This document shows positions 1,315 to 22,454 of a DNA stretch of 23,583 nucleotides, piece by piece; positions within the stretch are counted from its first letter, which is position 1; the number at the start of each line of letters is the position of its first letter. The DNA lies in IMG/VR virus record IMGVR_UViG_3300030109_005290, positions 1 to 23,583 of that record; one strand, written 5' to 3'. Both the position numbers and the translations under genes were made by a program. This DNA is from a virus. The notes beneath the pieces are model-generated. The model saw only the letters and a list, made by a program, of their open reading frames with translations. It searched no databases and was not told the DNA's origin.

Positions 1315-3738
1315 ATGGGATATTCTAACAAAAATTATTTTCCAAGCCAAGTTGTAAGTGATGCTGAAAAGTTAAGTTATGATTATGGTTTAAAAGTTGC
1401 TAAAGCAATTGAAAAAGAGTGGTTTGATGAAGATCAAAGAGGTGTTAATAATAGATATATGACAAACTTTAATAGTTTTCATGATTTAAGATTATATGCT
1501 AGAGGTGAACAATCAATACAAAAATATAAGGATGAGTTATCTATAAACGGTGATTTGTCCTATTTAAATTTAGACTGGAAACCTATTCCTATTATATCTA
1601 AGTTTGTTGATATAGTTGTGAATGGTATAGCTGAAAGAACGTATGATATAAAAGCTTTTTCTCAAGATCCATATGGCATTGCTCAAAGGACTGAATATAT
1701 GGAGTCTATAATGAGAGATATGGAAACAAAAGAATTTAATGATGTTGCTGCCCAAACAATGGGTATGGATCTTTATGAAAATGATAAAAATACACTACCA
1801 GAAACTCCAGAAGAATTAGCATTACATATGCAAATAAGTTATAAGCAAGCTGTAGAGTTAGCTGAAGAACAAGCTTTAAAAGTATTGTTTGAAGGTAATA
1901 ATTACGAATTAATTAAAAAACGTTTTTATTATGATTTAGCTGTTTTAGGTATAGGTGCAACAAAAACAAGTTTTAATACTTCAGAAGGTGTTACTATAGA
2001 CTATGTTGATCCGGCTAATTTAGTTTATTCTTATAGCGATTCTCCATATTTTGAAGATATATATTACGTTGGTGAAGTAAAAAGTATACCTGTAAATGAA
2101 CTAGCTAAACAGTTTCCTCATTTATCACAAGAAGATCTTGAAGATATAATGAATAACAAGAATTATAATAGAAATAATTATAATACTCGTTATGATAAAA
2201 AGAAAGAAGACAACAATACAGTACAAGTTTTATATTTTAATTATAAAACTTATATGAATGAAGTTTATAAAATAAAAGAAACAGGTACTGGTGCAGATAA
2301 AATAATACCTAAAGATGACCAATTTGATCCGCCAGAAAATATGGAAGGTGGTTTTGGTAAACTACTAAAATCTATAGAAACTCTTTACGAAGGCGCTTTA
2401 ATACTAGGTACAAATAAATTACTTAAGTGGGAAATGGCTAAAAACATGATGAGACCAAAAAGTGATTATACTAAAGTAAAAATGAATTATTCTATTGTGG
2501 CTCCTAGAATTTATAATGGTAGAATTGATTCTTTAGTAAAACGTATAACTGGTTTTGCAGACATGATACAACTAACACATTTAAAATTACAACAAGTAAT
2601 GTCTCGTATGGTTCCTGATGGTGTTTATCTAGACGCTGATGGTTTAGCTGAAATAGATTTAGGTAATGGTACAAATTATAACCCACAAGAAGCTTTAAAT
2701 ATGTTCTTCCAAACAGGTTCTGTTATTGGTAGATCGTTTACACAAGATGGTGATATGAATCCAGGTAAAATACCTATTCAAGAAATAACTAGCGCAAGTG
2801 GTGGTAATAAAATGCAAGCTCTTATAGGTAATTATAATTACTACTTACAAATGATAAGAGATGTAACCGGGTTAAACGAAGCTAGAGATGGTAGTATGCC
2901 TGATAAAAATGCTTTAGTAGGTGTTCAAAAATTAGCTGCTGCGAACTCAAATACAGCAACAAGGCATATACTGCAAGCTGGATTATATTTAACAGCGGAA
3001 ACAGCTGAGTGTTTATCTCTTAGAATATCTGATATTATAGAATATTCACCAACTAAAGAAGCTTTTATACAGGCTATAGGAGTTCATAACGTAGCTACCT
3101 TAGAAGAAATGTCTAATTTACATTTGTATGACTTTGGTATATTTTTACAATTAACTCCAGATGAAGAAGAAAAAGCAATGCTTGAAAACAATATTCAGAT
3201 GGCGTTGCAACAAAAAACTATAGAACTAGAAGATGCTATTGATCTTAGAGAAATAAAAAGTATAAAACTTGCTAATCAACTTCTTAAAATACGTAGAAAA
3301 AAGAAAGAAGAAAAAGATAGACAACTTCAAATGGAAAATATACAAGCACAAGCACAAGCAAATCAACAGTCAGCTCAAGCGGCAGCTCAAGTTGATATGC
3401 AAAAAGAACAAGCTTTAACAGCTAGTAAAGCAGAGCTTGAACAAGTAAAAGCACAACTTGATGCACAAAAAATGCAAGCTGAAGCTAATCTTAAAAAAGA
3501 ATTAATGGCTTTAGAATTTCAATATAACATGGCATTAAAAGGTGTAGAGACAGAGGGTTTAAAACAAAGAGAAAAAGAAAAAGAAGATCGTAAAGACGAA
3601 AGAACAAAAATTCAAGCAACTCAACAAAGCGAGATGATTGAGCAAAGAAAATCAGATAAACCACCTAAAAACTTTGAGTCTGCAGGTAATGATATTATGG
3701 GAGGCGGATTTGATTTAGGCGCGTTTGGTCCTAGATAA
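1315..3738 (+). CDS. Portal protein
   Basis: This is the likely dodecameric portal, the ring at one capsid vertex through which DNA enters and leaves. It has 807 residues, long for portals in general but normal for the crAss-like type. An N-terminal wing region (about 1-200) precedes a central part with portal-like segments, including ITGFADMIQLTHLKLQQ and, at about 519-553, an N-EARDGS-PDKNALVGVQKLAA stretch that is typical of this family. Residues about 640-775 are a long charged, Gln/Ala-rich helix with coiled-coil character. This could be the portal barrel projecting into the capsid, although its extreme Gln content is also typical of ejected proteins. The tail after about 780 is Gly-rich. 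The gene lies between terL (2-base gap) and the scaffold gene (28-base A/T-only gap), as expected for terminase-portal-scaffold-capsid order. Function is inferred from sequence sense and position. Confidence 0.9.
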   Translation: MGYSNKNYFPSQVVSDAEKLSYDYGLKVAKAIEKEWFDEDQRGVNNRYMTNFNSFHDLRLYARGEQSIQKYKDELSINGDLSYLNLDWKPIPIISKFVDIVVNGIAERTYDIKAFSQDPYGIAQRTEYMESIMRDMETKEFNDVAAQTMGMDLYENDKNTLPETPEELALHMQISYKQAVELAEEQALKVLFEGNNYELIKKRFYYDLAVLGIGATKTSFNTSEGVTIDYVDPANLVYSYSDSPYFEDIYYVGEVKSIPVNELAKQFPHLSQEDLEDIMNNKNYNRNNYNTRYDKKKEDNNTVQVLYFNYKTYMNEVYKIKETGTGADKIIPKDDQFDPPENMEGGFGKLLKSIETLYEGALILGTNKLLKWEMAKNMMRPKSDYTKVKMNYSIVAPRIYNGRIDSLVKRITGFADMIQLTHLKLQQVMSRMVPDGVYLDADGLAEIDLGNGTNYNPQEALNMFFQTGSVIGRSFTQDGDMNPGKIPIQEITSASGGNKMQALIGNYNYYLQMIRDVTGLNEARDGSMPDKNALVGVQKLAAANSNTATRHILQAGLYLTAETAECLSLRISDIIEYSPTKEAFIQAIGVHNVATLEEMSNLHLYDFGIFLQLTPDEEEKAMLENNIQMALQQKTIELEDAIDLREIKSIKLANQLLKIRRKKKEEKDRQLQMENIQAQAQANQQSAQAAAQVDMQKEQALTASKAELEQVKAQLDAQKMQAEANLKKELMALEFQYNMALKGVETEGLKQREKEKEDRKDERTKIQATQQSEMIEQRKSDKPPKNFESAGNDIMGGGFDLGAFGPR

Positions 3739-9680: not shown

Positions 9681-12600
9681 ATGCTTGAATTGAATCACAA
9701 GTTTTATCAAGGTCGAATGAACAAAGATCTTGATGAAAGATTAGTGCCTAATGGTGAATATAGAGATGCGTTAAATATAGAAATAAACACATCAGAAGGA
9801 TCTAACATGGGTACGGTTCAAACTCTTATGGGTACAGAGGCTATATCTAATTTTATGAGTATGAATTTAGATTTATACTGCGTAGGTAGTATAGCTGATG
9901 AAAAAAATGATAAAATATACTGGATGGCTAGTGGTCAAGGTAAAGATATTATAGCTGAATATAATTACGTAGAAGAAACAATACATCCAGTTGTTGTTGA
10001 TATATTTCCAATAGGTACACCCGCTAACACTGATAGTGGAAGAACTCTAAATTTTGATAAATCTTTTTTAATAACAGGTATAAATATTATAGATGATATG
10101 TTATTTTGGACAGATAATAATTCTGAGCCAAAAAGAATACATATTGAAAGATGTAAAATGGGTACTACTAATTTTAGTACTCCTACAAAGCTTTTCGTAA
10201 GACATTATGTTACAGGTTCGTCTACGTTTACCGGTGATGACTTTATAGATTCTGGTAAACTTTTAAAACAAGAACATATAACTGTTATAAAAAAACCACC
10301 TTTAACACCTCCTCTACTCGAAATTAAAAGTACAACTAGAGAAGATATTGACGGTAATAACTCAATAGAAATATCAACAACTATATCAGCTTCTGGAAAT
10401 ATTTTTTCTGATACAAACGTTGTTATAGGTGTAGCTGGTTTAGCACCTTTAAATAACCCCGCTAATCATCCTGTTTTTGACACGCCTGCCGATTTTCAAA
10501 TTGGTGATACTTTACTTATAACTACAACAGGTAATAATCAAGTTTTTGAAATAAGAGCAAAAATTGTTAGTCAATCTTTTAATGGTAATTTTTATACTTT
10601 AGAAATTATAAAAAAAGATCCAAATATAACTAATGATTTAGATGTTTTTGAAGTAAAGTTAGAATTACCAGACCCACTATTCAAGTTTAAATTTCCTAGA
10701 TTTGCTTATAGATATAAATATGAAGATGGTGAGTATTCTACTTATTCACCTTTTACAGAAGTAGCTTTTTTACCTGGAGAATTTGATTATTTAAACAAAG
10801 AAGGTTATAATCTTGGTATGGTAAATAATGTAAGGTATTTAGCTATTAAAGATTTTGTTCATGAAAGATTAATACCAGATGATGTTGTAGCTATAGATAT
10901 TTTATATAAAGAATCAAACTCTCCAAATGTTTATTCTATAAAAACTATTAAAAAAGCTGTAAACACAGGGTTTTATAGTGTTCATGATGAGTGGAATGCT
11001 ATATCTAAAAATCAAGTAGTTCCTGCAGGTAGTAATCAAAGAACGAAAGGTTTTCTTGAAATAACATCTGAATTAATACATGGTATATTACCTTCTAATC
11101 AACTTTTACGTAATTATGATAATGTACCTAGAAAAGCCTTAGCTCAAGAAATTACTGGTAATAGAATAGTTTATGGTAATTATTTACAAAATTATGATTT
11201 ATCAAATAGGGAAGGAACTATATCATCAGCTTTAGAAGACTATGGTCCTTTATATGGTAGTTTAACAGCTCAAGAAAATATTAATGTAAATGTAGATGTT
11301 AAAATAAAAGAAGGTGTTGTTGGAGACACTATACCAACTCAACTTAATCCTTTTTATGCCGGTACTGACTCTGTATCTCCTTACGGACCAGCTAAATCAA
11401 TAAAAACATTAAGAACTTATCAAGTAGGTGTTGTTTATATAGATGAGTTTGGTAGAGAAACCCCTGTTTTTTCTGATAGTATTATAAATGATAATTCTAT
11501 AACAGTTAAAAAGATTTTTGCAGATAAAGCAACTAAATTATCAGCTCAAATTAAAAGTATAAAACCAGAGTGGGCTAAATATTTTAAGTTTTTTATTAAA
11601 GAAACTTCAAATGAATATTACAACTTAGCAATGGATCGTTGGTACAATGCTGAAGATGGTAATATTTGGTTGAGTTTTCCTTCATCTGAAAGAAATAAAG
11701 TAGATTTAGAAACATTTTTAATACTTAAAAAAGAACATGATACAGATGTTTTTACACCTGAAGATGTAAGATATAAAATAATTGCTATTGAAAACGAAGC
11801 TCCTTTGTTTATAAAAACAAGACAATATGTATCTGGTACTTTTCAAGATGATGGTACGAAATTAGGATCTTCAATATCAAACTTTCCTTTACCAGGAAAT
11901 ACCCAAGTAAGATTTGATAAAATTGCTTTTGAACAATTAGGTTGGGCAAACCCTTCTAGCTCAACAACAACTGGCACGCCTGGAGCTATGGAGCCAGGAA
12001 CACAAGGTACTCTTTATTTACAAAACTATGGAGAGTTCTTTATGAGGGCTAAAGTTAATAATGATTTTAGTGCTATGTATGAAATTAAAAATATAACTTT
12101 TAGCGCAGGTGGTAATGGTAGTTATATTGTAGAGTTTGCAAAACAATTTGAAGATGATATGTCTATAACTTCGGCTTCTTTAGGCCCAGATGCTTTTATA
12201 GACAGGTATTCAAATGTTGAAATGCATTTGTATAGAAATGAAGTTAGAAATAGACCTGAGTTTGATGGTAGATTTTTTGCTAAAATAAAAAAAGATGTTA
12301 ATTTAATAAATTCAATAATAAAAGAAGATTCTACTATTGGATCTTCTTACTATGTAACAAGTGCGGTGCAAGCTCAATATATTTCACCTTCAGACTGTAG
12401 CAAATACAAAAAAGCTGGAATGGCTGATATAGATGTTAATGATTGGTATGGTATTAGTGGTGGTGTTATTGGCCCTTCTTTTGAAAATCAATTATATAAA
12501 ATATCTACCAACGATAGTGGTATAGCTGAGTCTAGATGGAGTACTGGTGATCCAGGTCAAGGTAAAGAATATTGGAAGAAAGCTAGTTTTGGAGATAATG

Positions 12601-15600
12601 ATCCTTCTGGTATTTTTAATGCATCTACTAATACAAACGGTTTACAATCACAGTCTTCTGGTTGGTTTATTGATAAGATAGAAGGTTTTAGAAGATCTAA
12701 AGCCGCTTGGAAAAATTATGGAAAAATAATGGCAAACCATCCAGATTTTAGTTGGAGCGGTTATGGAACTCACCATGAAAAAGATAGTTTAAACGAAGTA
12801 AATCACGGATTTCTTGGTAGTTACAGTTACGGAGGAACTACTTATAACGAAACTTTTAAAGCTGGACTAGTTGCTACATCAACTTTTAGTGGAAATTTAG
12901 GAGAGTTTTATGATAGTTCTGACACAAGTGATTTTGGTCCATTAAATCAAATGCAATTAGAAGGAACTTCTACTATAGGTAGTGATGGTAATACTTGGCA
13001 TAATTATTTAGGAATAACTGACGCTAAAGGACCTTGGAATCAATTAGTCTATGATTTTACGGTTTCTAATGGAAACACTGGTTCAGAAGGAGTTAGTATG
13101 ATACATTGTAATTCAGATATGAATACTCCTAAAAATTTTGAAAAAGATAGCGGTATAGTTCCTTCTGTTGGTATACATGAGAATGTAGTTCATTTATCAT
13201 ATTCTGGTATTGGTTCTATAGAATCTTCCTCTAGTAATTACAACGATAGTGCAAATAATTATTTTGAATATTCTAACAATACAGCCCAAACACATGTAGC
13301 TGACATAGAATTTATAAACTCTATAACTACACCAGGTACTATATGGAGATGGAAAGAAGATCCGGGTCAATGTGTTTATCAAACTTTACAATATAACGCG
13401 AGTTACAACGCGCCTTTATTAGGAGAAACTTATCACTCTAATGTCGTTCCTTATCCAGCCGTCTCTGGTGTTTTTGATTATCAAAACTCTCCACCAGCTT
13501 CTTTGCAATCGCCTAATTTAGGTAATTTTGATTATACTAAACCTATTAATTTTACAGATCAACTTTGGCATTATAATAGTTTTGATCAATCTGAAGGCCA
13601 GAACGTACTTGGAGTTGCTTTATATAATTATTGTTCTTTAAGAGAATATCCTATAGATAATCCTCTTCAAGATTTTCCTATTTATAGTCACACAGGTTCT
13701 GGAGCTCATAGAGCGGGTGGTACTTATATGAACTGGTGGTGGTGGTTTGATGATGATAGCGCTGGGCAGGTTATGAGAAATAGAATGAGAGTTAATGCTA
13801 TTAAGAATTGCTCTGTTGTAGCTGTAAGAGATGTGGCAGATACACTTTCTGATGGACAAGATCCTCATACCGTAGACATGTTAGCTTGTAAACAGTGGGG
13901 TATGGGTTACAGATCAACTTATAACATCAGTAGTGGTGCCTCTACTAGCAGTATCTATTCAGAAAGCTGTTTTACCCATAACCATAATAGTATTGGTATA
14001 GCTCCTGCTTTAGGTAATTATGGAAAATGGCCTATGATGACTAGAGATTGGGGTAAACCTTATAACAAAAGAAGAAGATTTCAATTTTTTGCAAAATCTT
14101 TAGAAAGAAATACAGTTACAGGTGAAAGATATAATTTAGGTGAAGCTCCAGCAGATGTTAGTGCTACTAATCCTGGTCACCAACATTTATACTTACCAAC
14201 AAACGATCCAGATCTTCACCCTCATTTTGCTAGTGATTTTTCTGTATTAACTCTAGCTGGTGTTGCTAATACTGCTGACAATGCTAGTAATAACTATCCT
14301 AATCTACCTGGTACTCCAGCGCCTGGTATACGTCCTGATGGCGTGCATTCTGGTTATAAATATCCTGGTCCTAATTGGACTATTACAACTGGTGATACCA
14401 CTAACAAAAGTCATTCTTATGTTCCTTATTATAAAGTAATTGAAGGTACTGGTGGTAGTAATCCATCTTCACCTCCACCGGGATCATGTACTTGGCAAGT
14501 ATTATCAAAATTTAATTCTTATGAAGATGAAAAATACTCTAGTACAAACCCAGCTATATGGGAAACAGAGCCTAAAGAAGATATTGGTTTAGATATTTAT
14601 CACGAAATTGGACAAGTATACCCTATAGAACTAAACGAAAATACTGTAGAGCAATTTGTTGGTCCTATTAAAGATAATATAATTGAAAATTCTAGAGTTT
14701 CATGTTGGGTTCCTCCAACTGGACCTTGGAAAACCTTAGTATCAAATGCTGGTGGAGAAGATATTAGAGTTAATATTGCTACGCAAGGACCTAGTTTACA
14801 AACACCTCCAACTTTACCTGGAGATATGACTTTTATATCATTAGCAGATTCTGATGGAAACCCTGTTACTTTTTTACCTGGAGTTTCTGTTACTCCTGCT
14901 GTTAACGATATATTATACTTTACAAGAGCGGATGGTAGTGTTACATCAACTAAAGTTATAGAGTTAGCACCTCTTAATTTTGCTTACGCTTTGGCTCCAG
15001 ATGTTCATAATTATGAAGCCGTGCTTCCTTTCCATAATTGTTATTCATTTGGTAATGGTGTTGAGTCTGATAGAATACGTGATGATTTTAATCAAGTTAC
15101 TATAGATAACGGACCAAAAGCTTCAACTGTATTAGAAGAAACTTATGCTGAAGAAAGAAGAGGTAGTGGTTTAATTTATTCAGGTATATATAATTCTATG
15201 TCTGGTATAAATAATTTAAATCAATTTATTGCCGCTGAAAAAATAACAAAAGATTTAAACCCAAAATACGGTACAATACAAAAACTTCACTCAAGAAATA
15301 CTAATTTATTAACTCTTTGTGAAGATAAAGTATTTAAAATATTAGCTAATAAAGACGCTTTGTTTAACGCTGATGGAAACGCTAATCTTATATCTACTGA
15401 AAATGTTTTAGGACAAGCAACGCCATTATTAGGTGAATATGGTATATCAAAAAATCCAGAGTCTTTTGCTTCAGAATCTTATAGAACTTATTTTACTGAT
15501 AAAACAAGAGGAGCTGTTATAAGATTATCACAAGATGGCTTAACAGCTATATCAGATTATGGTATGAAAGACTACTTTTCAGATATTTTACCAAACTCTA

Positions 15601-18600
15601 ATAGAATAATTGGAAGTTATGATGATAAGAAAAAAGAATATAACTTAAGTGTAGATTATTATAACTATAATGTTTATAATGCTAAAATATTAGGTAGTTC
15701 AAAAACTGGTAATCCACCTTACACTCCAGAACCTAGATTAATACTTGATTGTAAAGACGCTGATAATATACAAGTCAATTATACTATTACTGGACCTGGT
15801 ATATCTCCAAATACTATTGTTGTTAGTAAAACAACTTTAGGTGGTGGTGAATGTCAAGTAGATTTAGACAAACCACCTATAGCAAACTTATCACAAAACC
15901 TTGGTAATTATTCACCTTATTCAGCAGGTGGTGTTGTTTATTGGTCAACAAAAATATCTTCTTCTAAAATTGTTCCAGATTTACCTAATACAACTATTAC
16001 TTTTTCTGAAATATCTAAAGGTTGGGTAAGTTTTAAATCTTGGTTTCAAGAAAATGGACTTAGTTTAAATAATAATTATTATTCTTTTAAACATGGTGAT
16101 TTACACAAACATCATTCAGATCAAGTTGATATAAATAATTTTTATGGTGATCAGTACGATTCTAGTATTCAAGTTCTTTTTAACGAAGATCCAGGAACTG
16201 TAAAAACTTTCCACTCTTTAAATTATGAAGGTAGTCAATCTCGTATATTAGAAAACTATGACACAGATGATTATTGGGATGATGTACATAAAGACGGTTG
16301 GTACGTTAGTAATCTACATACTAATTTACAGGAAGGTGATACACAAACGTTTAAAAATAAAGAAGGTAAATGGTTTTCTGAGATAAAAGGTCAAAGCACT
16401 GAGTGGTTAGATGATACAACTGCTGGAAATATAGATACTAAAGAATTTTCATATCAAGGAATAGATGAGACACATGGTATTACTACTTTACAAGGTGGTT
16501 TTACTTCTTGGGATTGTTTACCAGCTCAAAATCCTTGTAGTACTGGGTGTTATTATAGTTCAAGACAGTGGGGTGTACCTAGAAGTTTTTTAGGAACGTT
16601 TCAATCAACTCAGCAAGTACAAGATTTTTTCTGGGATCCAGTTAATCAAGCAAAACATCCTGGAGATTATTATACTATTATATTAGATCCACCAGGTAAT
16701 ACTAACTACAACGCACCAGGTCCAGGTTATAATTACGTTAATGGTGTGGATAACGCGCAAGGACATTACGCTTGTAGCTCTAGTTACGTGCTTTTTCCTA
16801 TTACAAACCCTGATGTTTTTCCAAACGCCCCAGCGTATAATACTTGGAACAATCCCCAAATTGGACAATATCCCTCGTCATATGTTGTAGAATGTCCTAA
16901 TATTTCTAGCTCTACAGGTCCATTTATATCTTCATCAAATCAAGTAAATCAATGTGGTCAAAGACGTTTTGAGTCTGTATTTGAAATTATAGAAGATTTT
17001 GCAACCTATGTAGATTCAACAGCTTTTTATCATGGTATGAGTAGAGCAGATTTTCTAGCAGCTATTTATCCTAATAATCCTCCGGCCGGTATGGGTTTTG
17101 TTGGGCCTGGTTTTCCTGAAAACTGGCTACAACATTTTGCAGATGCAAAACCAATAGCTACAAGTACTCCTAGCTTTACATGTGTAGAAATACAAGGTTT
17201 AGGAGGTGCTTATGCTGACGAAGCCGCGTGTTATGCAGATGTTAATTCACCGTGTACACCTGTTCCTGAAACATATAACTGTATAACAGGTCAATGTATA
17301 GATCCTAACGATGGATCTGGAGCGTTTACTGGTGTTAATGCTTTACTAGATTGTTTATCTGTTTGTCAACCTTGTACGCCAGCAACTTTAAGCACAACAA
17401 CTACAGACGCTACAAATGTACCTGGAACATCTAATTGTTATGATGATGGTGAAATTAGTATTACAGCTATAACACTTGGTGCTACTTGGACTTATGAAAT
17501 TTTTGACGTTGCGAGTGTACTTGCTTTTAATTCAACAACACCTGTTTCAACTGGTGGTACAGATAGTTCTGGTAATATTTTATTCCCAGGAAACTATACG
17601 TTAATAGTTACTGATGATTTAGGCTGTACAACTTCTGTAGGTTTTACAATAAATTGTTCTTTACCTCCAGTCCCAGCTTGTCCTACAACAGGTCCTTACA
17701 CATCTTATCTTGGGCCTAACACCACGCCTCATGAGTTTACAGCTTACGACGTGCAACCAAGTAATTATCCAGCTTGTGATAACGGAGAGTTAAGATGTAG
17801 CGCTTTAACACTTGGTTCTAGTAATTGGACAGCTTTTAATCCAGCTTATACTGTAGAGTGGTTTGAGCTTGATAATTCAGGTAATCTTACATCTATATAT
17901 AATGATCCATTTGCTTACGGTCAAGGACAAGCAACAACTCCTGTAACAGGTTTAACACCTGGTGATTATATATTTGAAATAACAGAATTAAGCGGTGATG
18001 CTTGTAAGTATCAATATGGTCCTTTTAATTTAGCTCAATGCCCTGTAATAACAGGACCTTGTACTAACCCTATAACATATCCTTATAATTCTTCAACTAC
18101 TTTTAATATAGGTCCTTGCTCTCAAACACCAGTTACAAATTTCGACGCTTGGCTTGGTCATTTGGGCCCAACAGATATAATAGACAACATGTGTTTAAAT
18201 AGGTGTGAACCATACGAACCAGATGGTTATGTTATTAATCAAGGCGCCGTTAGACATTACTTAGGTTGTATACCTACAGATGCTGCTTATGTTAAAGTTG
18301 CTTACTATGGTACTGGTGGCGGTTTTTCGATTGATTCAGATAGTTTACTATTTGATGATCCAACACAATATACAGGTAATCAATATATAATATGGGACAC
18401 GGTAGAACCTACTAGAGAACAAATGGATTTAGGACCTGGGGCTCTTGGGCCAGGCCCACAATCTCCTAGTGGTAGTAAGTATCAATTTACTATGATAATA
18501 ACAGCGTATGATGCTAATGGTGTTTATTTAGATGATGAAAATAATAATGTTTGCGGTTCATCAAGACTGTGGTATCATCCATGTGAATGTAACACAAATA

Positions 18601-19667
18601 CTGGTTTAAATGGTTGGGAGTGTAGCGTAAGTGGTTGCGTGCCTGTACAACAAGGATCTTTTCCAGCTATAAATTTTCCTAATTTATATAGTTGTAACAA
18701 TGGATATGTTTATGGGGGTGTATATTATAGTGGTTGTATTAGCAGTCAAGTAAGTGGATGTATGGATCCAAATGCTACTAATTATGACCCTACTGCAACG
18801 TTGCATGTTGCTAGTAATTGTCAATACGCTCCAATAGCGTGTGAAGGTAGTTTTGGCGGTAGCATAATAGATGATTATGAGTTTAATATTTTAGGTGTTG
18901 GTCCTTTACCTTGGATTGAAGATACTACCACTTATACTGAGGCTGTATACACAAATAATCAATGGAGATCAGCAATGCAAAACGTTATAACTAACCAACC
19001 ACCTACATCTCCAGTGATAAGTGCAGGTGGACCTATTGGGTTTTATCCTTCTTGGAAAAGCTACAGCATGACAGGCGGTGCTCCAACCGGAAACTCATAT
19101 GTAACTGAAATAATACAAAACCAATCAAACAACCCAGCACAGTTAGTTATGGGTATTACAGGAACACCAGATCCAGCTTACAACTGGGCTTCAGGTATTT
19201 ATACAATGATGCAAGTGTTAACAAAAAATACTTATCAAGTAACTGTAAATATATCTCAAATATATGACGCAAGTGGTGTTGGTTTTTGTGGTGGTGCTGG
19301 GGCAAACGCTTGTTCTTCGCCTACTACAAAAGGAAGACTTCAGGTGATGCAAAGTAGTTTTCCTTGGACACATCCTAATACTCCAAACAGTAACGATGTG
19401 TATGGATTACAACATCATCCAGGTTTTGGTACTGCTTTACCAGTTGCTAGTTTTGATTTTGATGATTCACTTTTTAACCCTTCAACAGGTGTTGCTACTC
19501 CAACTGCAAGTTTTACAATAGAATTTACTGTAGCCGATACAAATCAATATCCAACACCTAATGATCCTATTCGGGAGTTGCTAATTATACAACTTGATGG
19601 TTATTATGAACAAAAAATTTTTATAGATAGTGTTTGTGTTATAAAAATAGCAGGCCCAACTCCGTAA
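9681..19667 (+). CDS. Giant nozzle/muzzle-type tail protein fused to adhesin-like C-terminal modules
   Basis: This is one uninterrupted frame of 3328 residues. The N-terminal part looks like the beta-propeller tail-tip (nozzle, muzzle or stabilization) proteins of podoviruses. It has YQGRMNKDLDERLVPNGEYR at 8-27, propeller-like IYW at 79-81 and FWTD at 142-145, FAYRYKYEDGEYSTYSPFT at 341-359, GNRIVYGNY near 493-501, and TYQVGVVYIDEFGRETPVF at 579-597. Conserved propeller sequence resumes at about 1806-1985 (TYAEERRGSGLIYSGIYN, LLGEYGISKNPESFASESYR) and runs to about 2263. Between about 900 and 1800 lies a large, less familiar Trp/Gly/Asn/Ser-rich segment. From about 2265 to the end it is Cys-rich and adhesin-like: Cys modules, two SprB-like repeats (2565-2787), a GCxDPxAxNYxPxA motif (3026-3049) and a final beta-sandwich-like domain (3054-3328). 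No signal peptide or membrane segment is seen. It probably closes the tail channel and carries receptor-binding parts. The N-terminal assignment is firm; the C-terminal role is inferred. Confidence 0.8.
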   Translation: MLELNHKFYQGRMNKDLDERLVPNGEYRDALNIEINTSEGSNMGTVQTLMGTEAISNFMSMNLDLYCVGSIADEKNDKIYWMASGQGKDIIAEYNYVEETIHPVVVDIFPIGTPANTDSGRTLNFDKSFLITGINIIDDMLFWTDNNSEPKRIHIERCKMGTTNFSTPTKLFVRHYVTGSSTFTGDDFIDSGKLLKQEHITVIKKPPLTPPLLEIKSTTREDIDGNNSIEISTTISASGNIFSDTNVVIGVAGLAPLNNPANHPVFDTPADFQIGDTLLITTTGNNQVFEIRAKIVSQSFNGNFYTLEIIKKDPNITNDLDVFEVKLELPDPLFKFKFPRFAYRYKYEDGEYSTYSPFTEVAFLPGEFDYLNKEGYNLGMVNNVRYLAIKDFVHERLIPDDVVAIDILYKESNSPNVYSIKTIKKAVNTGFYSVHDEWNAISKNQVVPAGSNQRTKGFLEITSELIHGILPSNQLLRNYDNVPRKALAQEITGNRIVYGNYLQNYDLSNREGTISSALEDYGPLYGSLTAQENINVNVDVKIKEGVVGDTIPTQLNPFYAGTDSVSPYGPAKSIKTLRTYQVGVVYIDEFGRETPVFSDSIINDNSITVKKIFADKATKLSAQIKSIKPEWAKYFKFFIKETSNEYYNLAMDRWYNAEDGNIWLSFPSSERNKVDLETFLILKKEHDTDVFTPEDVRYKIIAIENEAPLFIKTRQYVSGTFQDDGTKLGSSISNFPLPGNTQVRFDKIAFEQLGWANPSSSTTTGTPGAMEPGTQGTLYLQNYGEFFMRAKVNNDFSAMYEIKNITFSAGGNGSYIVEFAKQFEDDMSITSASLGPDAFIDRYSNVEMHLYRNEVRNRPEFDGRFFAKIKKDVNLINSIIKEDSTIGSSYYVTSAVQAQYISPSDCSKYKKAGMADIDVNDWYGISGGVIGPSFENQLYKISTNDSGIAESRWSTGDPGQGKEYWKKASFGDNDPSGIFNASTNTNGLQSQSSGWFIDKIEGFRRSKAAWKNYGKIMANHPDFSWSGYGTHHEKDSLNEVNHGFLGSYSYGGTTYNETFKAGLVATSTFSGNLGEFYDSSDTSDFGPLNQMQLEGTSTIGSDGNTWHNYLGITDAKGPWNQLVYDFTVSNGNTGSEGVSMIHCNSDMNTPKNFEKDSGIVPSVGIHENVVHLSYSGIGSIESSSSNYNDSANNYFEYSNNTAQTHVADIEFINSITTPGTIWRWKEDPGQCVYQTLQYNASYNAPLLGETYHSNVVPYPAVSGVFDYQNSPPASLQSPNLGNFDYTKPINFTDQLWHYNSFDQSEGQNVLGVALYNYCSLREYPIDNPLQDFPIYSHTGSGAHRAGGTYMNWWWWFDDDSAGQVMRNRMRVNAIKNCSVVAVRDVADTLSDGQDPHTVDMLACKQWGMGYRSTYNISSGASTSSIYSESCFTHNHNSIGIAPALGNYGKWPMMTRDWGKPYNKRRRFQFFAKSLERNTVTGERYNLGEAPADVSATNPGHQHLYLPTNDPDLHPHFASDFSVLTLAGVANTADNASNNYPNLPGTPAPGIRPDGVHSGYKYPGPNWTITTGDTTNKSHSYVPYYKVIEGTGGSNPSSPPPGSCTWQVLSKFNSYEDEKYSSTNPAIWETEPKEDIGLDIYHEIGQVYPIELNENTVEQFVGPIKDNIIENSRVSCWVPPTGPWKTLVSNAGGEDIRVNIATQGPSLQTPPTLPGDMTFISLADSDGNPVTFLPGVSVTPAVNDILYFTRADGSVTSTKVIELAPLNFAYALAPDVHNYEAVLPFHNCYSFGNGVESDRIRDDFNQVTIDNGPKASTVLEETYAEERRGSGLIYSGIYNSMSGINNLNQFIAAEKITKDLNPKYGTIQKLHSRNTNLLTLCEDKVFKILANKDALFNADGNANLISTENVLGQATPLLGEYGISKNPESFASESYRTYFTDKTRGAVIRLSQDGLTAISDYGMKDYFSDILPNSNRIIGSYDDKKKEYNLSVDYYNYNVYNAKILGSSKTGNPPYTPEPRLILDCKDADNIQVNYTITGPGISPNTIVVSKTTLGGGECQVDLDKPPIANLSQNLGNYSPYSAGGVVYWSTKISSSKIVPDLPNTTITFSEISKGWVSFKSWFQENGLSLNNNYYSFKHGDLHKHHSDQVDINNFYGDQYDSSIQVLFNEDPGTVKTFHSLNYEGSQSRILENYDTDDYWDDVHKDGWYVSNLHTNLQEGDTQTFKNKEGKWFSEIKGQSTEWLDDTTAGNIDTKEFSYQGIDETHGITTLQGGFTSWDCLPAQNPCSTGCYYSSRQWGVPRSFLGTFQSTQQVQDFFWDPVNQAKHPGDYYTIILDPPGNTNYNAPGPGYNYVNGVDNAQGHYACSSSYVLFPITNPDVFPNAPAYNTWNNPQIGQYPSSYVVECPNISSSTGPFISSSNQVNQCGQRRFESVFEIIEDFATYVDSTAFYHGMSRADFLAAIYPNNPPAGMGFVGPGFPENWLQHFADAKPIATSTPSFTCVEIQGLGGAYADEAACYADVNSPCTPVPETYNCITGQCIDPNDGSGAFTGVNALLDCLSVCQPCTPATLSTTTTDATNVPGTSNCYDDGEISITAITLGATWTYEIFDVASVLAFNSTTPVSTGGTDSSGNILFPGNYTLIVTDDLGCTTSVGFTINCSLPPVPACPTTGPYTSYLGPNTTPHEFTAYDVQPSNYPACDNGELRCSALTLGSSNWTAFNPAYTVEWFELDNSGNLTSIYNDPFAYGQGQATTPVTGLTPGDYIFEITELSGDACKYQYGPFNLAQCPVITGPCTNPITYPYNSSTTFNIGPCSQTPVTNFDAWLGHLGPTDIIDNMCLNRCEPYEPDGYVINQGAVRHYLGCIPTDAAYVKVAYYGTGGGFSIDSDSLLFDDPTQYTGNQYIIWDTVEPTREQMDLGPGALGPGPQSPSGSKYQFTMIITAYDANGVYLDDENNNVCGSSRLWYHPCECNTNTGLNGWECSVSGCVPVQQGSFPAINFPNLYSCNNGYVYGGVYYSGCISSQVSGCMDPNATNYDPTATLHVASNCQYAPIACEGSFGGSIIDDYEFNILGVGPLPWIEDTTTYTEAVYTNNQWRSAMQNVITNQPPTSPVISAGGPIGFYPSWKSYSMTGGAPTGNSYVTEIIQNQSNNPAQLVMGITGTPDPAYNWASGIYTMMQVLTKNTYQVTVNISQIYDASGVGFCGGAGANACSSPTTKGRLQVMQSSFPWTHPNTPNSNDVYGLQHHPGFGTALPVASFDFDDSLFNPSTGVATPTASFTIEFTVADTNQYPTPNDPIRELLIIQLDGYYEQKIFIDSVCVIKIAGPTP
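13734..13745 (+). other. Four consecutive Trp codons in the tail protein
   Basis: TGG occurs four times in frame, giving Trp at residues 1352-1355, followed by Phe and three Asp. The run lies in the large, poorly recognisable middle segment of the giant tail protein. Confidence 0.9.
17181..17371 (+). other. Cys-rich mini-modules preceding the SprB-like repeats
   Basis: Two short Cys modules lie here. The first begins at C2501 (CVEIQGLGGAYADEAAC). The second spans 2534-2562, with CITGQC at the front, a Gly-x-Phe centre and CLSVC at the end. A third with the same C-x4-C, Gly-x-Phe, Leu-x-x-Cys layout begins at C2981 (CSVSGC), just before the GCxDPxAxNYxPxA motif. They look like small disulfide-bonded spacers typical of extracellular proteins of Bacteroidota. 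Confidence 0.5.
17373..17657 (+). other. SprB-like repeat 1 in the tail protein
   Basis: Residues 2565-2659, framed by Cys, show the SprB-repeat layout: a Cys followed by DDGEISITAITLG, a Trp-Thr-Tyr strand, then LFPGNYTLIVTDDLGC and a closing strand. SprB repeats occur in gliding-motility adhesins and other secreted proteins of Bacteroidota. The match is by eye; no profile search was possible. Confidence 0.6.
17679..18041 (+). other. SprB-like repeat 2 in the tail protein
   Basis: Residues 2667-2787 repeat the layout of the preceding unit: CDNGELRCSALTLGSSNW, then YTVEWFELD, LTPGDYIFEITELSGDAC and a final strand ending in Cys. Shared positions with repeat 1 are the G-E-[IL], the A-x-TLG-[AS] step, the PG-x-Y turn and the T-[DE] before the late Cys. 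It is divergent and longer than repeat 1. Confidence 0.52.
18756..18827 (+). other. GCxDPxAxNYxPxA element in the tail protein
   Basis: Residues 3026-3049 read GCMDPNATNYDPTATLH, then Val-Ala-Ser-Asn-Cys. This closely follows a short element, GC-x-DP-x-A-x-NY-x-P-x-A with a closing SC or NC, that is common in secreted and surface proteins of marine Bacteroidota, from memory. Asp/Asn spacing suggests possible calcium binding, by analogy only. Confidence 0.65.
18840..19664 (+). other. C-terminal beta-sandwich-like domain of the tail protein
   Basis: Residues 3054-3328 alternate short polar and hydrophobic strands, for example KNTYQVTVNISQIYDASG, FTIEFTVADTN, LLIIQLDGYYEQKIFIDSV. The pattern resembles carbohydrate-binding or jelly-roll domains and has the extreme C-terminal position where receptor-binding parts often sit. 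No specific family is recognised. Confidence 0.4.
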
Positions 19668-19696: not shown

Positions 19697-21469
19697 ATGA
19701 TTTTTAATCCATATATATATAAATTATATTATCCAAATGGCGATTCTGAATATAGCGGTGGAGGAGCTGAAGGTGGTCGAGGTGAAGGCGAAAGCCCAAG
19801 CGGTGAACCAACCGGTGGCGGAACTATGTATAGCACAACTACTACTAGTGGTGGTGAAGTAGAAAATAACGGTAGGAGAGAAGACGATTATTTACAACCT
19901 GAATTTTGGCTAAAAAGAAAAGATCCAAATGATACTAGTAAAACAAAAGAAATAAATGTATTTACAATAGAATCTATTAAAGGTAACGCTGGGTTTATAG
20001 ATCCTAAAGGTGAAAGAAAAAGAATAAATATATTTGGTACAGCTGGTGCTATTTTTTCGCTAACAGTTAAAGATAGTTCTGGTTGTAATATATTAAGAGA
20101 AAAAGTAGAAAATGTTTCAATACCTGAAAGTGGTAGATATATTATTGTTCAAGATTTTCCATCTATTATTTCTGATGGTAGTTTTACCAAAACAAAAGAA
20201 ACTTATAGCATAGAAATAACACCCGCGGCTGACGTTTATTTAAACTCTGTAACTAAAATGTTGATAGAGCAAATAGCAGATCCAGTTATAACTGTTACTA
20301 AAACAACTTCACAAACATCCCCAGCTTTATCTATTGCTAGTGTTGATGATTTGGAAATAACTGGACCGGCTAGATCAAAAAATAACAGAGCAGCTTCAGT
20401 TTACACTTTAACAGTTACAGAAAACCCAGAAGATTCTGCTGGTAAGCTTTATGTTAAAAGTACAAATTTTAATGATAATATTAGTTCTAACACATTAATA
20501 AAAAAACTAGTTAATAGAGGTGGCGACGACGTTAAAGGTTCTACTAATACTTATACTTTAGACCATTTAACCACTAGAACAACTAGTACTATTGAAAATA
20601 GTGATGGTGCTAGAATTAGAAATGCAGATGGTAGTTTTACAGAAAACACAAACACAACGCATGAATTAATAAACGGTATGACAGCGTATGCTAAAGTTGT
20701 TTATGATAGAGAATTTGTGGCTAATTTAGACGAAAATAATAATGTTTTAGACGGTAATTGTCAAACAATACCCACAAGAATTAAAATAAATAATACTAAC
20801 GATTTGTTTGCAGGTATGCATGTTTATGGAGATGTAGAAAGCGGAACTATACTCGCAAGAGTTGATTGTGATAAAACAATTACTATTATACCTGGACAAA
20901 TTATTAAAAACAATACAACTCTTAGATTTGAAAAAAGATATTATAACTCAGTGTCAGAGGTTTTAACAAATAACAACTCTAGGCAACAAGCTGAAATACG
21001 ATTAATGGCAGATGAAGATATTCCTAATGGTACAGAAGTTGAATTTGATAATGATAAAAACCAAATAACAGGAGTTGTAAGATTTGATACTAGTGGTGCT
21101 GATCAAATAGTGTTAAAAGCACATGTTAAACCAATTAAATTTGGCGATGCTAACGTTACTTATACTTTAAATTTAGATAATTTAATAACATCTAAACCAA
21201 ATGCATATAATAAAAGCGTGTCTACTAAAAAAAATACAGCTGTAACTATAAATATGATAGAAAATGATTATGATGCTAACCGCGCAAACAAAACAGGTAC
21301 CGTTGTGAAAAAACCCACAAATGGTTTAGTTGGTGATTATGTTACTTCAACCGATTCTTTTACATATACACCAAATCCTGGTTTTACAGGTGAAGATATA
21401 TTTACATTTACAATGAGTGACGGTACGAATTCTAGTGATGAAAAAACAGTTACAATAAAAGTTATTTAA
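19697..21469 (+). CDS. Virion-associated protein with C-terminal cadherin-like/Ig-like (Big_9-type) domain
   Basis: This 590-residue protein probably belongs to the tail or its appendages. After a short aromatic start, residues about 20-55 are Gly/Ser/Thr/Glu-rich and probably disordered. The middle is beta-rich and not recognised as a whole. Around 360-412 is a unit with DLFAGMHVYGDVESGTILAR and TITI, resembling the two GM-V modules in the protein at 8355-9674. Residues 500-590 carry a clear tandem cadherin-like/Big_9 layout: a start near KPNAYNKSVS, then MIENDYDAN, DSFTYTPNPGFTGEDIFTFT and SDGTNSSDEKTVTIKV. Such domains serve as adhesive or spacer modules on bacterial surface proteins and phage fibres. 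It starts 29 bases after the giant tail gene, and its stop is followed after 1 base by the next ATG. Host attachment is an inference from the domain and neighbourhood. Confidence 0.65.
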   Translation: MIFNPYIYKLYYPNGDSEYSGGGAEGGRGEGESPSGEPTGGGTMYSTTTTSGGEVENNGRREDDYLQPEFWLKRKDPNDTSKTKEINVFTIESIKGNAGFIDPKGERKRINIFGTAGAIFSLTVKDSSGCNILREKVENVSIPESGRYIIVQDFPSIISDGSFTKTKETYSIEITPAADVYLNSVTKMLIEQIADPVITVTKTTSQTSPALSIASVDDLEITGPARSKNNRAASVYTLTVTENPEDSAGKLYVKSTNFNDNISSNTLIKKLVNRGGDDVKGSTNTYTLDHLTTRTTSTIENSDGARIRNADGSFTENTNTTHELINGMTAYAKVVYDREFVANLDENNNVLDGNCQTIPTRIKINNTNDLFAGMHVYGDVESGTILARVDCDKTITIIPGQIIKNNTTLRFEKRYYNSVSEVLTNNNSRQQAEIRLMADEDIPNGTEVEFDNDKNQITGVVRFDTSGADQIVLKAHVKPIKFGDANVTYTLNLDNLITSKPNAYNKSVSTKKNTAVTINMIENDYDANRANKTGTVVKKPTNGLVGDYVTSTDSFTYTPNPGFTGEDIFTFTMSDGTNSSDEKTVTIKVI

Positions 21470-21470
21470 A

Positions 21471-22454
21471 ATGCCTATAGTACAATTTACATTTTCACAT
21501 AAATTAAATGAATCAGTTCAAGTAGGTGATATTGCTTACTTTAGTAATCCAACAGCGGTACCGCCTCCTGGAACTAGTAATTGGTATGGGACTATACCAG
21601 CATTATCAAACGCTCATGGCACAAGTTATCCTCCACATAAAACTTCTATTAGAGAAGATATTATAAAAATTGGTGAAATAGAAGAGATTATATTCTGGGA
21701 TGGTTCAACTAATTCTATAATATGTAATATGAGTCAGGCTTTATATAATTCTTACGCTAATAATTTTGTTGTAGGTGGTTCAACTTATCAATACAACTTT
21801 ATTACAGGTACAGGTGCTATAGCTGGATATCAAACAGTTGCTAATATATATCCTCTTGATTTTACTAATTATCACTCTTGTGCTACTTGTCAAAATTCAG
21901 CTGCGTTAGCTGCAAACATGCCAAACCCTTTACCTATATATCTTCAAGCTAATCAACAAGAAAATATTGTTAATGTAGTTTTTAGATATGTAAGAGACGG
22001 TGATCAAAATGTTTGGATATCTGACGGATATGCAGCAATACCTACTAATGATCCTTATTACCAACCTGGTAGAATAAATGGTTTTATCGCTGTAAGTGGT
22101 TTTACAATAATAGATAATAGTGGAACAACTTACTACGAACCTCAAAATACAACTACTTTACCTTTTCCTGTTGTTGCAGATCCATTAAAGCCTTATAGTT
22201 ATGGTGTAGCTGCACAAGCATATCCTAACGCTGTTAGTATAGAACCCACTGATTTCGTGCCTTTAAAAGGTACTGTTGGTAATGGAACTCTTGTTAATAC
22301 TCAAGGTAGTTTTATTATGTTTAGTAAAAATAATAAAGCTAATCAATCTGATGTATTAGGTTATTACGCGTTAGTAGAATTTAGAAATAGTGCTATAAAT
22401 ACAGGTTCAGAGCTATTTAATGCCGGTATAACATACTCTAACAGTAGTAAATAA
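21471..22454 (+). CDS. Conserved phage protein of unknown function, probable tail component
   Basis: This 327-residue protein has no function I can name. It begins with VQFTFSHKLNESVQVGDIAY, has a central IIFWDGSTNSIICNMSQA segment and a single CATC Cys pair (about residues 138-141). It ends with a distinctive DVLGYYALVEFRNSAINTGS, then ELFNAGITYSNSSK, a C-terminal pattern that recurs in marine phage proteins near tail genes, from memory. The sequence is rich in Tyr, Asn, Thr, Gly and Pro, with no signal peptide, membrane segment or coiled coil, as in beta-rich virion proteins. Its ATG lies 1 base after the previous TAA, so it is probably co-translated with the cadherin-like-domain gene. A tail-tip or fibre role is a guess from position. 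Confidence 0.65.
   Translation: MPIVQFTFSHKLNESVQVGDIAYFSNPTAVPPPGTSNWYGTIPALSNAHGTSYPPHKTSIREDIIKIGEIEEIIFWDGSTNSIICNMSQALYNSYANNFVVGGSTYQYNFITGTGAIAGYQTVANIYPLDFTNYHSCATCQNSAALAANMPNPLPIYLQANQQENIVNVVFRYVRDGDQNVWISDGYAAIPTNDPYYQPGRINGFIAVSGFTIIDNSGTTYYEPQNTTTLPFPVVADPLKPYSYGVAAQAYPNAVSIEPTDFVPLKGTVGNGTLVNTQGSFIMFSKNNKANQSDVLGYYALVEFRNSAINTGSELFNAGITYSNSSK

Follow-up and report, generated by a model that had tools for sequence, protein, structure and literature searches.

In Bacteroidota, proteins secreted through the T9SS contain SprB repeats as modules of a general kind. The locus described here raises the question of whether two segments in the tail of a crAss-like virus of Bacteroidota belong to the same repeat family and, if so, what they might do there. 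The window, i.e. the whole stretch of 23,583 bases that we analysed, is an entire IMG/VR record. A preliminary description made from its letters had noted two diverged, tandem SprB-like units at 17373-18041 in a phage tail protein, and had suggested that they were captured host surface modules, perhaps binding the polysaccharides or the gliding machinery that host adhesins contact. The position was accurate and corresponds to residues 2565-2787 of the ORF at 9681-19667.

The muzzle gene and its C-terminal extension

The ORF that bears both units contains a crAss_MUZ_C domain (Pfam PF25729; 40.2 bits, E 4.9e-10, cut-off 27) and matches phrog_14478, a PHROGs family of virion structural proteins (E 2.8e-134). 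Genes for the large terminase (TerL), for the portal and for a number of structural or head proteins lie 5' of it. Domain and gene row together are those of a Crassvirales muzzle and identify the ORF, by sequence and gene order, as a crAss-like phage muzzle, a more specific assignment than the "tail protein" proposed initially. The same two family matches place it in the gene family of muzzle gp44 of PhicrAss001 (PMC10172136), from which it differs in its length of 3328 aa and in its 1092-aa modular extension. The accessible text of that study ascribes length variation to insertions in the crass and IG2 regions and does not name a C-terminal arm (PMC10172136). Searches of the PDB by sequence, using either the core alone or a nine-row alignment of part of the core, gave no match to gp44, distances within the family being large. 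No Pfam or NCBIfam match besides MUZ_C was found across the protein, nor the C-terminal T9SS sorting signal of the gliding adhesin SprB. BACON domains were likewise not detected: with the whole protein, MUZ_C was the sole Pfam family at E ≤ 1, and the pieces searched separately matched no family at E ≤ 10.

Table 1. Features of the muzzle gene and the two ORFs that follow it, in positions of the window.
Feature	Position	Strand	Basis
crAss-like muzzle (tail-tip gatekeeper), 3328 aa, bearing both units	9681..19667	+	ORF; PF25729; phrog_14478
crAss_MUZ_C domain, residues 2151-2236, final conserved muzzle part	16131..16388	+	Pfam PF25729
C-terminal extension, residues 2237-3328, cysteine-rich	16389..19664	+	comparison with relatives; cysteine count
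Two small cysteine modules (CVEIQGLGG...C; YNCITGQCIDPNDGSG...C) directly 5' of unit 1	17181..17372	+	sequence; likeness to L001 and L002
Predicted SprB-type unit 1, residues 2565-2665; profile match 2622-2658	17373..17675	+	host-built profile, genome searches, shuffles
Predicted SprB-type unit 2, the more diverged of the two, residues 2667-2787; profile match 2745-2771	17679..18041	+	profile, unit-unit comparison, shuffles
GCMDPNATNYDP-type module, residues 3026-3049	18756..18827	+	motif; L015 counterpart in Bacteroidota genomes
Neighbouring ORF, 590 aa, C-terminal Big_9 (Ig-type) domain	19697..21469	+	PF17963, 50.3 bits
Separate ORF, 327 aa, ending in GYYA...ELF...SSK (residues 275-327)	21471..22454	+	sequence comparison with relatives

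The extension stands apart from the rest of the muzzle by its 40 cysteines in 1092 residues, compared to 15 in the preceding 2236, and the muzzles of two relatives (L001 and L002) have the same contrast. The SprB-type units begin 328 residues past MUZ_C. L001 and L002 also hold modules resembling both small cysteine modules upstream of unit 1, which had no matches in 149 genomes of one Bacteroidota class (E ≤ 1e-3). A carbohydrate-binding jelly-roll at the extreme C-terminus, suspected by eye, is not proposed here; Pfam gave none, and the match to the end of the L259 muzzle was marginal (E 0.002, 23 residues). Beyond the muzzle, the neighbouring ORF with the Big_9 domain may encode another surface-exposed structural protein.

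Relation of the two units to SprB repeats

The stock SprB model of Pfam (PF13573), which is only 37 positions long, returned nothing at E ≤ 10 with either unit or the whole record, and its cut-off of 28 bits was not reached. A second SprB profile of 70 positions was built from 988 SprB repeats at 80 genome loci, gathered with an SprB consensus, and was scanned at full sensitivity over 51 muzzles (the window's and those of 50 relatives). Unit 1 scored 15.9 bits (single-protein E 5e-7). The profile search suggested in the preliminary description was thus negative with the stock model and positive, for unit 1, with the longer host-built one. The top five matches among the 51 muzzles all fell in C-terminal extensions: window residues 2622-2658 (15.9 bits), L002 2709-2744 (7.7), window 3145-3190 (5.2), window 2745-2771 (4.3) and L001 2894-2920 (3.2). 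In 1000 shuffles of the window's extension, 15.9 bits was never reached, and scores of at least 7.7, 5.2 and 4.3 bits occurred 4, 8 and 11 times, respectively. The match of unit 1 is firmly established as well beyond chance; on the shuffle test alone, unit 2 and the stretch 3145-3190 are not safe. The latter, at 19113-19250 near the end of the extension, is a third, weak match to the profile.

To compare the units with host genomes, we searched 295 genomes of one Bacteroidota class (that of a Winogradskyella genome) in six frames. Unit 1 alone had matches in 84 of them at E ≤ 1e-3, reversed unit 1 in none, and unit 2 alone in two. Neither of the two unit-2 matches fell on an SprB unit identified in the ORF concerned. 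Genomes of other classes gave no match to unit 1 (0/16), a cross-class control too small to weigh much. When 38 loci fetched with a two-unit query were re-scanned with unit 1, a match was present in 36, each time on SprB units of ORFs with 3 to 14 units. PF13573 exceeded its cut-off in all five unit-1-matched host ORFs that were scanned; three of these five carry a T9SS sorting tail, and their partner domains include kelch and glycine-rich domains. Units 1 and 2 are adjacent and alike, consistent with the tandem repetition of SprB repeats: BLASTP aligned them with E 2e-5 (a single comparison), and their raw score of 61 was equalled in 3 of 2000 shuffles of unit 2, compared to at most 34 for 39 tiles from other muzzle parts.

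When three of the extensions were aligned and used for a further scan, four more muzzles were recovered (L256, L258, L259 and L261), of which L256, L258 and L261 run past the contig end. The clearest counterpart was found in L258 (11.7 bits with the SprB profile; E 4e-7 against unit 1). Nine units from five muzzles were aligned, with unit ends set at cysteines, leaving out unit L1c of L001 (no closing motif) and the second unit of L258 (the contig ends inside it). The first and last cysteines are present in all nine units, partly by choice of the unit ends; the cysteine of D-x-GC, which is not a selected position, is also present in 9/9, and a cysteine preceding DG is aligned in 5/9. Comparison of the nine units with host SprB repeats by hhalign gave E 2.6e-7; leaving out unit 1 raised this to 7e-7, and leaving out L258a as well to 2e-6. 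The score of 39.5 compares to at most 16.9 for column shuffles (n=200, three of which carry the preceding shuffle's score) and 7.5 for the reversed alignment. Singly, seven of the nine units reached at least 6.5 bits with the closing half of the SprB profile, L1a and L2b having no clear match. All nine have an extra cysteine about 10 residues after that of D-x-GC. Among host SprB units, a cysteine 7 to 12 residues after this position was counted in 15 of 1081, an upper-side estimate from a loose test with a fixed search window.

These analyses strongly suggest that unit 1 is SprB-type. Unit 2 is weaker alone, and the profile comparison provides moderate evidence that it belongs to the same family. 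The initial observation of two diverged tandem SprB-like units is confirmed by the host-built profile (unit 1), the unit-unit comparison and hhalign. Shared with the SprB repeat of PF13573 in T9SS-secreted Bacteroidota proteins are the Cysteine-xx-(D/N)G start, the Y-x-x-x-V-x-D-x-GC end and the tandem layout, whereas the phage units fall below Pfam detection and have a longer middle loop, the extra cysteine and no T9SS tail.

Modules at the muzzle C-terminus

The 50 relatives were gathered via the conserved muzzle core. More than 600 residues follow this core in four of them and fewer than 170 in 38, the slot being filled by unrelated modules or by nothing. According to BLASTP, only L001 and L002 share the window's extension beyond short motifs. 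The muzzle ends of L003, L004, L010, L015 and L028 contain GCxDPxAxNYDP repeats, and L031 and L019 end in long arrays unlike the window's extension. Of 149 genomes searched from one Bacteroidota class, 39 contain a match to the GCxDPxAxNYDP module of L015 (E ≤ 1e-5). Because both this module and the SprB-type units are matched in Bacteroidota, the C-terminal slot has at least two unrelated modules in common with Bacteroidota proteins. The GC(T/M)DPxAxNYDP module, which the window has in common with these five relatives, has no Pfam name in L015. Four other muzzles of 2480-3443 aa (L025, L030, L021 and L041) owe most of their additional residues to sequence ahead of the point where the conserved core ends, so that large insertions also occur elsewhere.

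A GYYA...ELF...SS segment was followed through 51 muzzle loci, a count that excludes L256, L258, L259 and L261. The segment ends the muzzle in 13 loci, ends a separate ORF in 30 (including the window), is found in both in three (the muzzle copy being weak) and is missing from both in the remaining five. Among these five, L028 and L032 stop within the muzzle. Where separate, the ORF most often lies downstream of the muzzle. All 13 muzzles with a fused segment are compact. In muzzles with more than 300 residues past the core, the segment, wherever found, sits in a separate ORF; in L040 (333 residues) it was not found. We infer as direction of change that the terminal segment was split off as a gene of its own, which would have opened the muzzle end to new modules. 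It is quite possible, if somewhat short of probable, that the muzzle serves as a display platform: one branch would have split the ancestral terminal segment off, freeing the end to swap extracellular modules shared with Bacteroidota (four-cysteine SprB-type units, GCxDPxAxNYDP modules and other Ig-like arrays) and turning the gatekeeper into a fast-evolving host-contact organ.

Origin and possible role of the extension

Phage SprB repeats as such are already known, since UniProt names them in proteins of uncultured Caudovirales (names seen in BFVD). In IMG/VR, SprB-like repeats are encoded on at least 80 other contigs (L133-L212). Their arrays range from 1 to 16 units and lie in proteins associated with tail tubes, with Hoc-like families or with no known context. 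These viral proteins are likewise SprB-type and differ from the window's in that none of the 80 contigs has the muzzle core and that PF13573 exceeded its cut-off in five of eight proteins scanned, whereas the window units remain below it; L142, one of the eight, bears a T9SS signal as well and is possibly of bacterial origin. Direct searches of named phages and IMG/VR with the units or the extension end found no relative. No SprB repeats in a muzzle are described in the accessible parts of published work on SprB repeats and on the crAss muzzle protein. The nearest published parallel, as far as the available text of PMC6949934 goes, is provided by the tandem BACON repeats of crAssphage tail-associated proteins, which are also Ig-type, known from Bacteroidota and placed in a tail-region protein. 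BACON is another domain family, and the window units lie at the muzzle's own C-terminus.

Several other explanations of the units were weighed. Direct capture from a Bacteroidota surface protein, with the units still binding its polysaccharide or protein partner, perhaps that of a gliding adhesin, would fit the score of unit 1 against host arrays (26.1 bits), slightly above that against the viral units compared (19.6 bits), and the Winogradskyella protein L213, whose SprB units carry the same rare extra cysteine with near-identical wording around it. However, in a tree of 163 units, unit 1 pairs with a viral unit (support 0.82), and around this pair host and viral units are mixed, with moderate support; unit 2 groups with one viral and several host units, and L2a among viral units only. 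Clustering with host proteins alone was not observed, viral units being mixed in. The tree is too shallow to choose between host and phage origin, matching unit 1 was in part the criterion by which host samples had been chosen, and adhesins are not the sole host carriers, which also comprise enzymes and kelch proteins. With many other viral contigs bearing SprB repeats, the capture is not supported in the form proposed, and we regard it as fairly unlikely. Contact with the gliding machinery likewise loses its footing for a repeat so general in T9SS-secreted proteins. Carriers include kelch proteins and a fucoidanase with one SprB repeat, which stays active after removal of the C-terminal part containing it (PMC7698502). 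In the neighbourhood of toxin genes, SprB is over-represented as a domain of T9SS substrates (PMC7073777).

It is very unlikely that the units are generic phage Ig-like decoration of the Hoc-like sort, resembling SprB solely through a shared Ig/PKD sandwich. In enterobacterial phages, an SprB consensus does match Ig domains as well, both Hoc-like ones and those of tail tubes. AlphaFold on three phage rows gave no usable model (pLDDT 31), and a model built with host SprB rows reached pLDDT 68.6 while leaning on the very homology at issue. A fold search with the latter returned unspecific Ig/PKD-type matches (best Z 5.4, to a PKD-type domain) and SprB-named viral proteins (E 0.02-0.064), which are partly circular because the model holds host SprB rows. 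In contrast, hhalign of the nine phage units gave E 0.0019, 0.17 and 0.16 with PKD-type, HYR_4C and Big_9 alignments, respectively, which puts SprB ahead of these three by roughly four or more orders of magnitude in E. In addition, all 36 unit-1 matches sit on SprB units, and the cysteine before DG and that of D-x-GC are common to phage units and host SprB repeats. An extension that merely braces the hexamer or the barrel-muzzle joint without host contact would agree with the disulfides stabilising the tail barrel and fibre hubs of the PhicrAss001 virion (PMC10172136) and with a C-terminus that may lie nearer the joint than the tip. Yet it must be dispensable for assembly in the family, since 38 of the 50 relatives have fewer than 170 residues past the core, and its content changes wholesale between relatives, as receptor-binding parts do; we consider a purely structural role quite improbable.

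We consider it reasonably probable that the units are diverged SprB members in a disulfide-braced spacer or adhesin arm on the muzzle of a crAss-like phage. The homology, the place after MUZ_C, the cysteine pattern and the variability of the slot are observed. Units 1 and 2 would form Ig/PKD-type beta-sandwich segments, a fold modelled with host rows, braced by putative disulfides. In PhicrAss001 the muzzle is a hexamer at the tail end, a cell-contact role has been proposed for its crass domain, and this distal domain is an insertion in IG2 (PMC10172136). The arm would be joined to the muzzle C-terminus and, by analogy, displayed six-fold. Because it starts from the C-terminus and not, like the tip domain of PhicrAss001, from within IG2, its exit may lie closer to the ring-muzzle joint than to the tip. 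Presumably exposed outward, the arm could help in gripping the surface of a Bacteroidota cell, or in sensing it, while the muzzle gate is still closed. The SprB units are most likely spacers or weak adhesins and not the specificity head: because SprB occurs beside enzymes and binding modules in hosts and the fucoidanase is active without it, such a role fits better than a dedicated gliding contact.

It is a known habit of crAss-like viruses to make the parts that contact the host out of host-type modules, and the finding adds to it. It also indicates that diverged SprB repeats in phages escape stock Pfam searches. If muzzles do carry swappable host-type arms, host range could couple directly to the cargo-release gate, and the arm would give the search for host specificity in environmental crAss-like phages a definite target.
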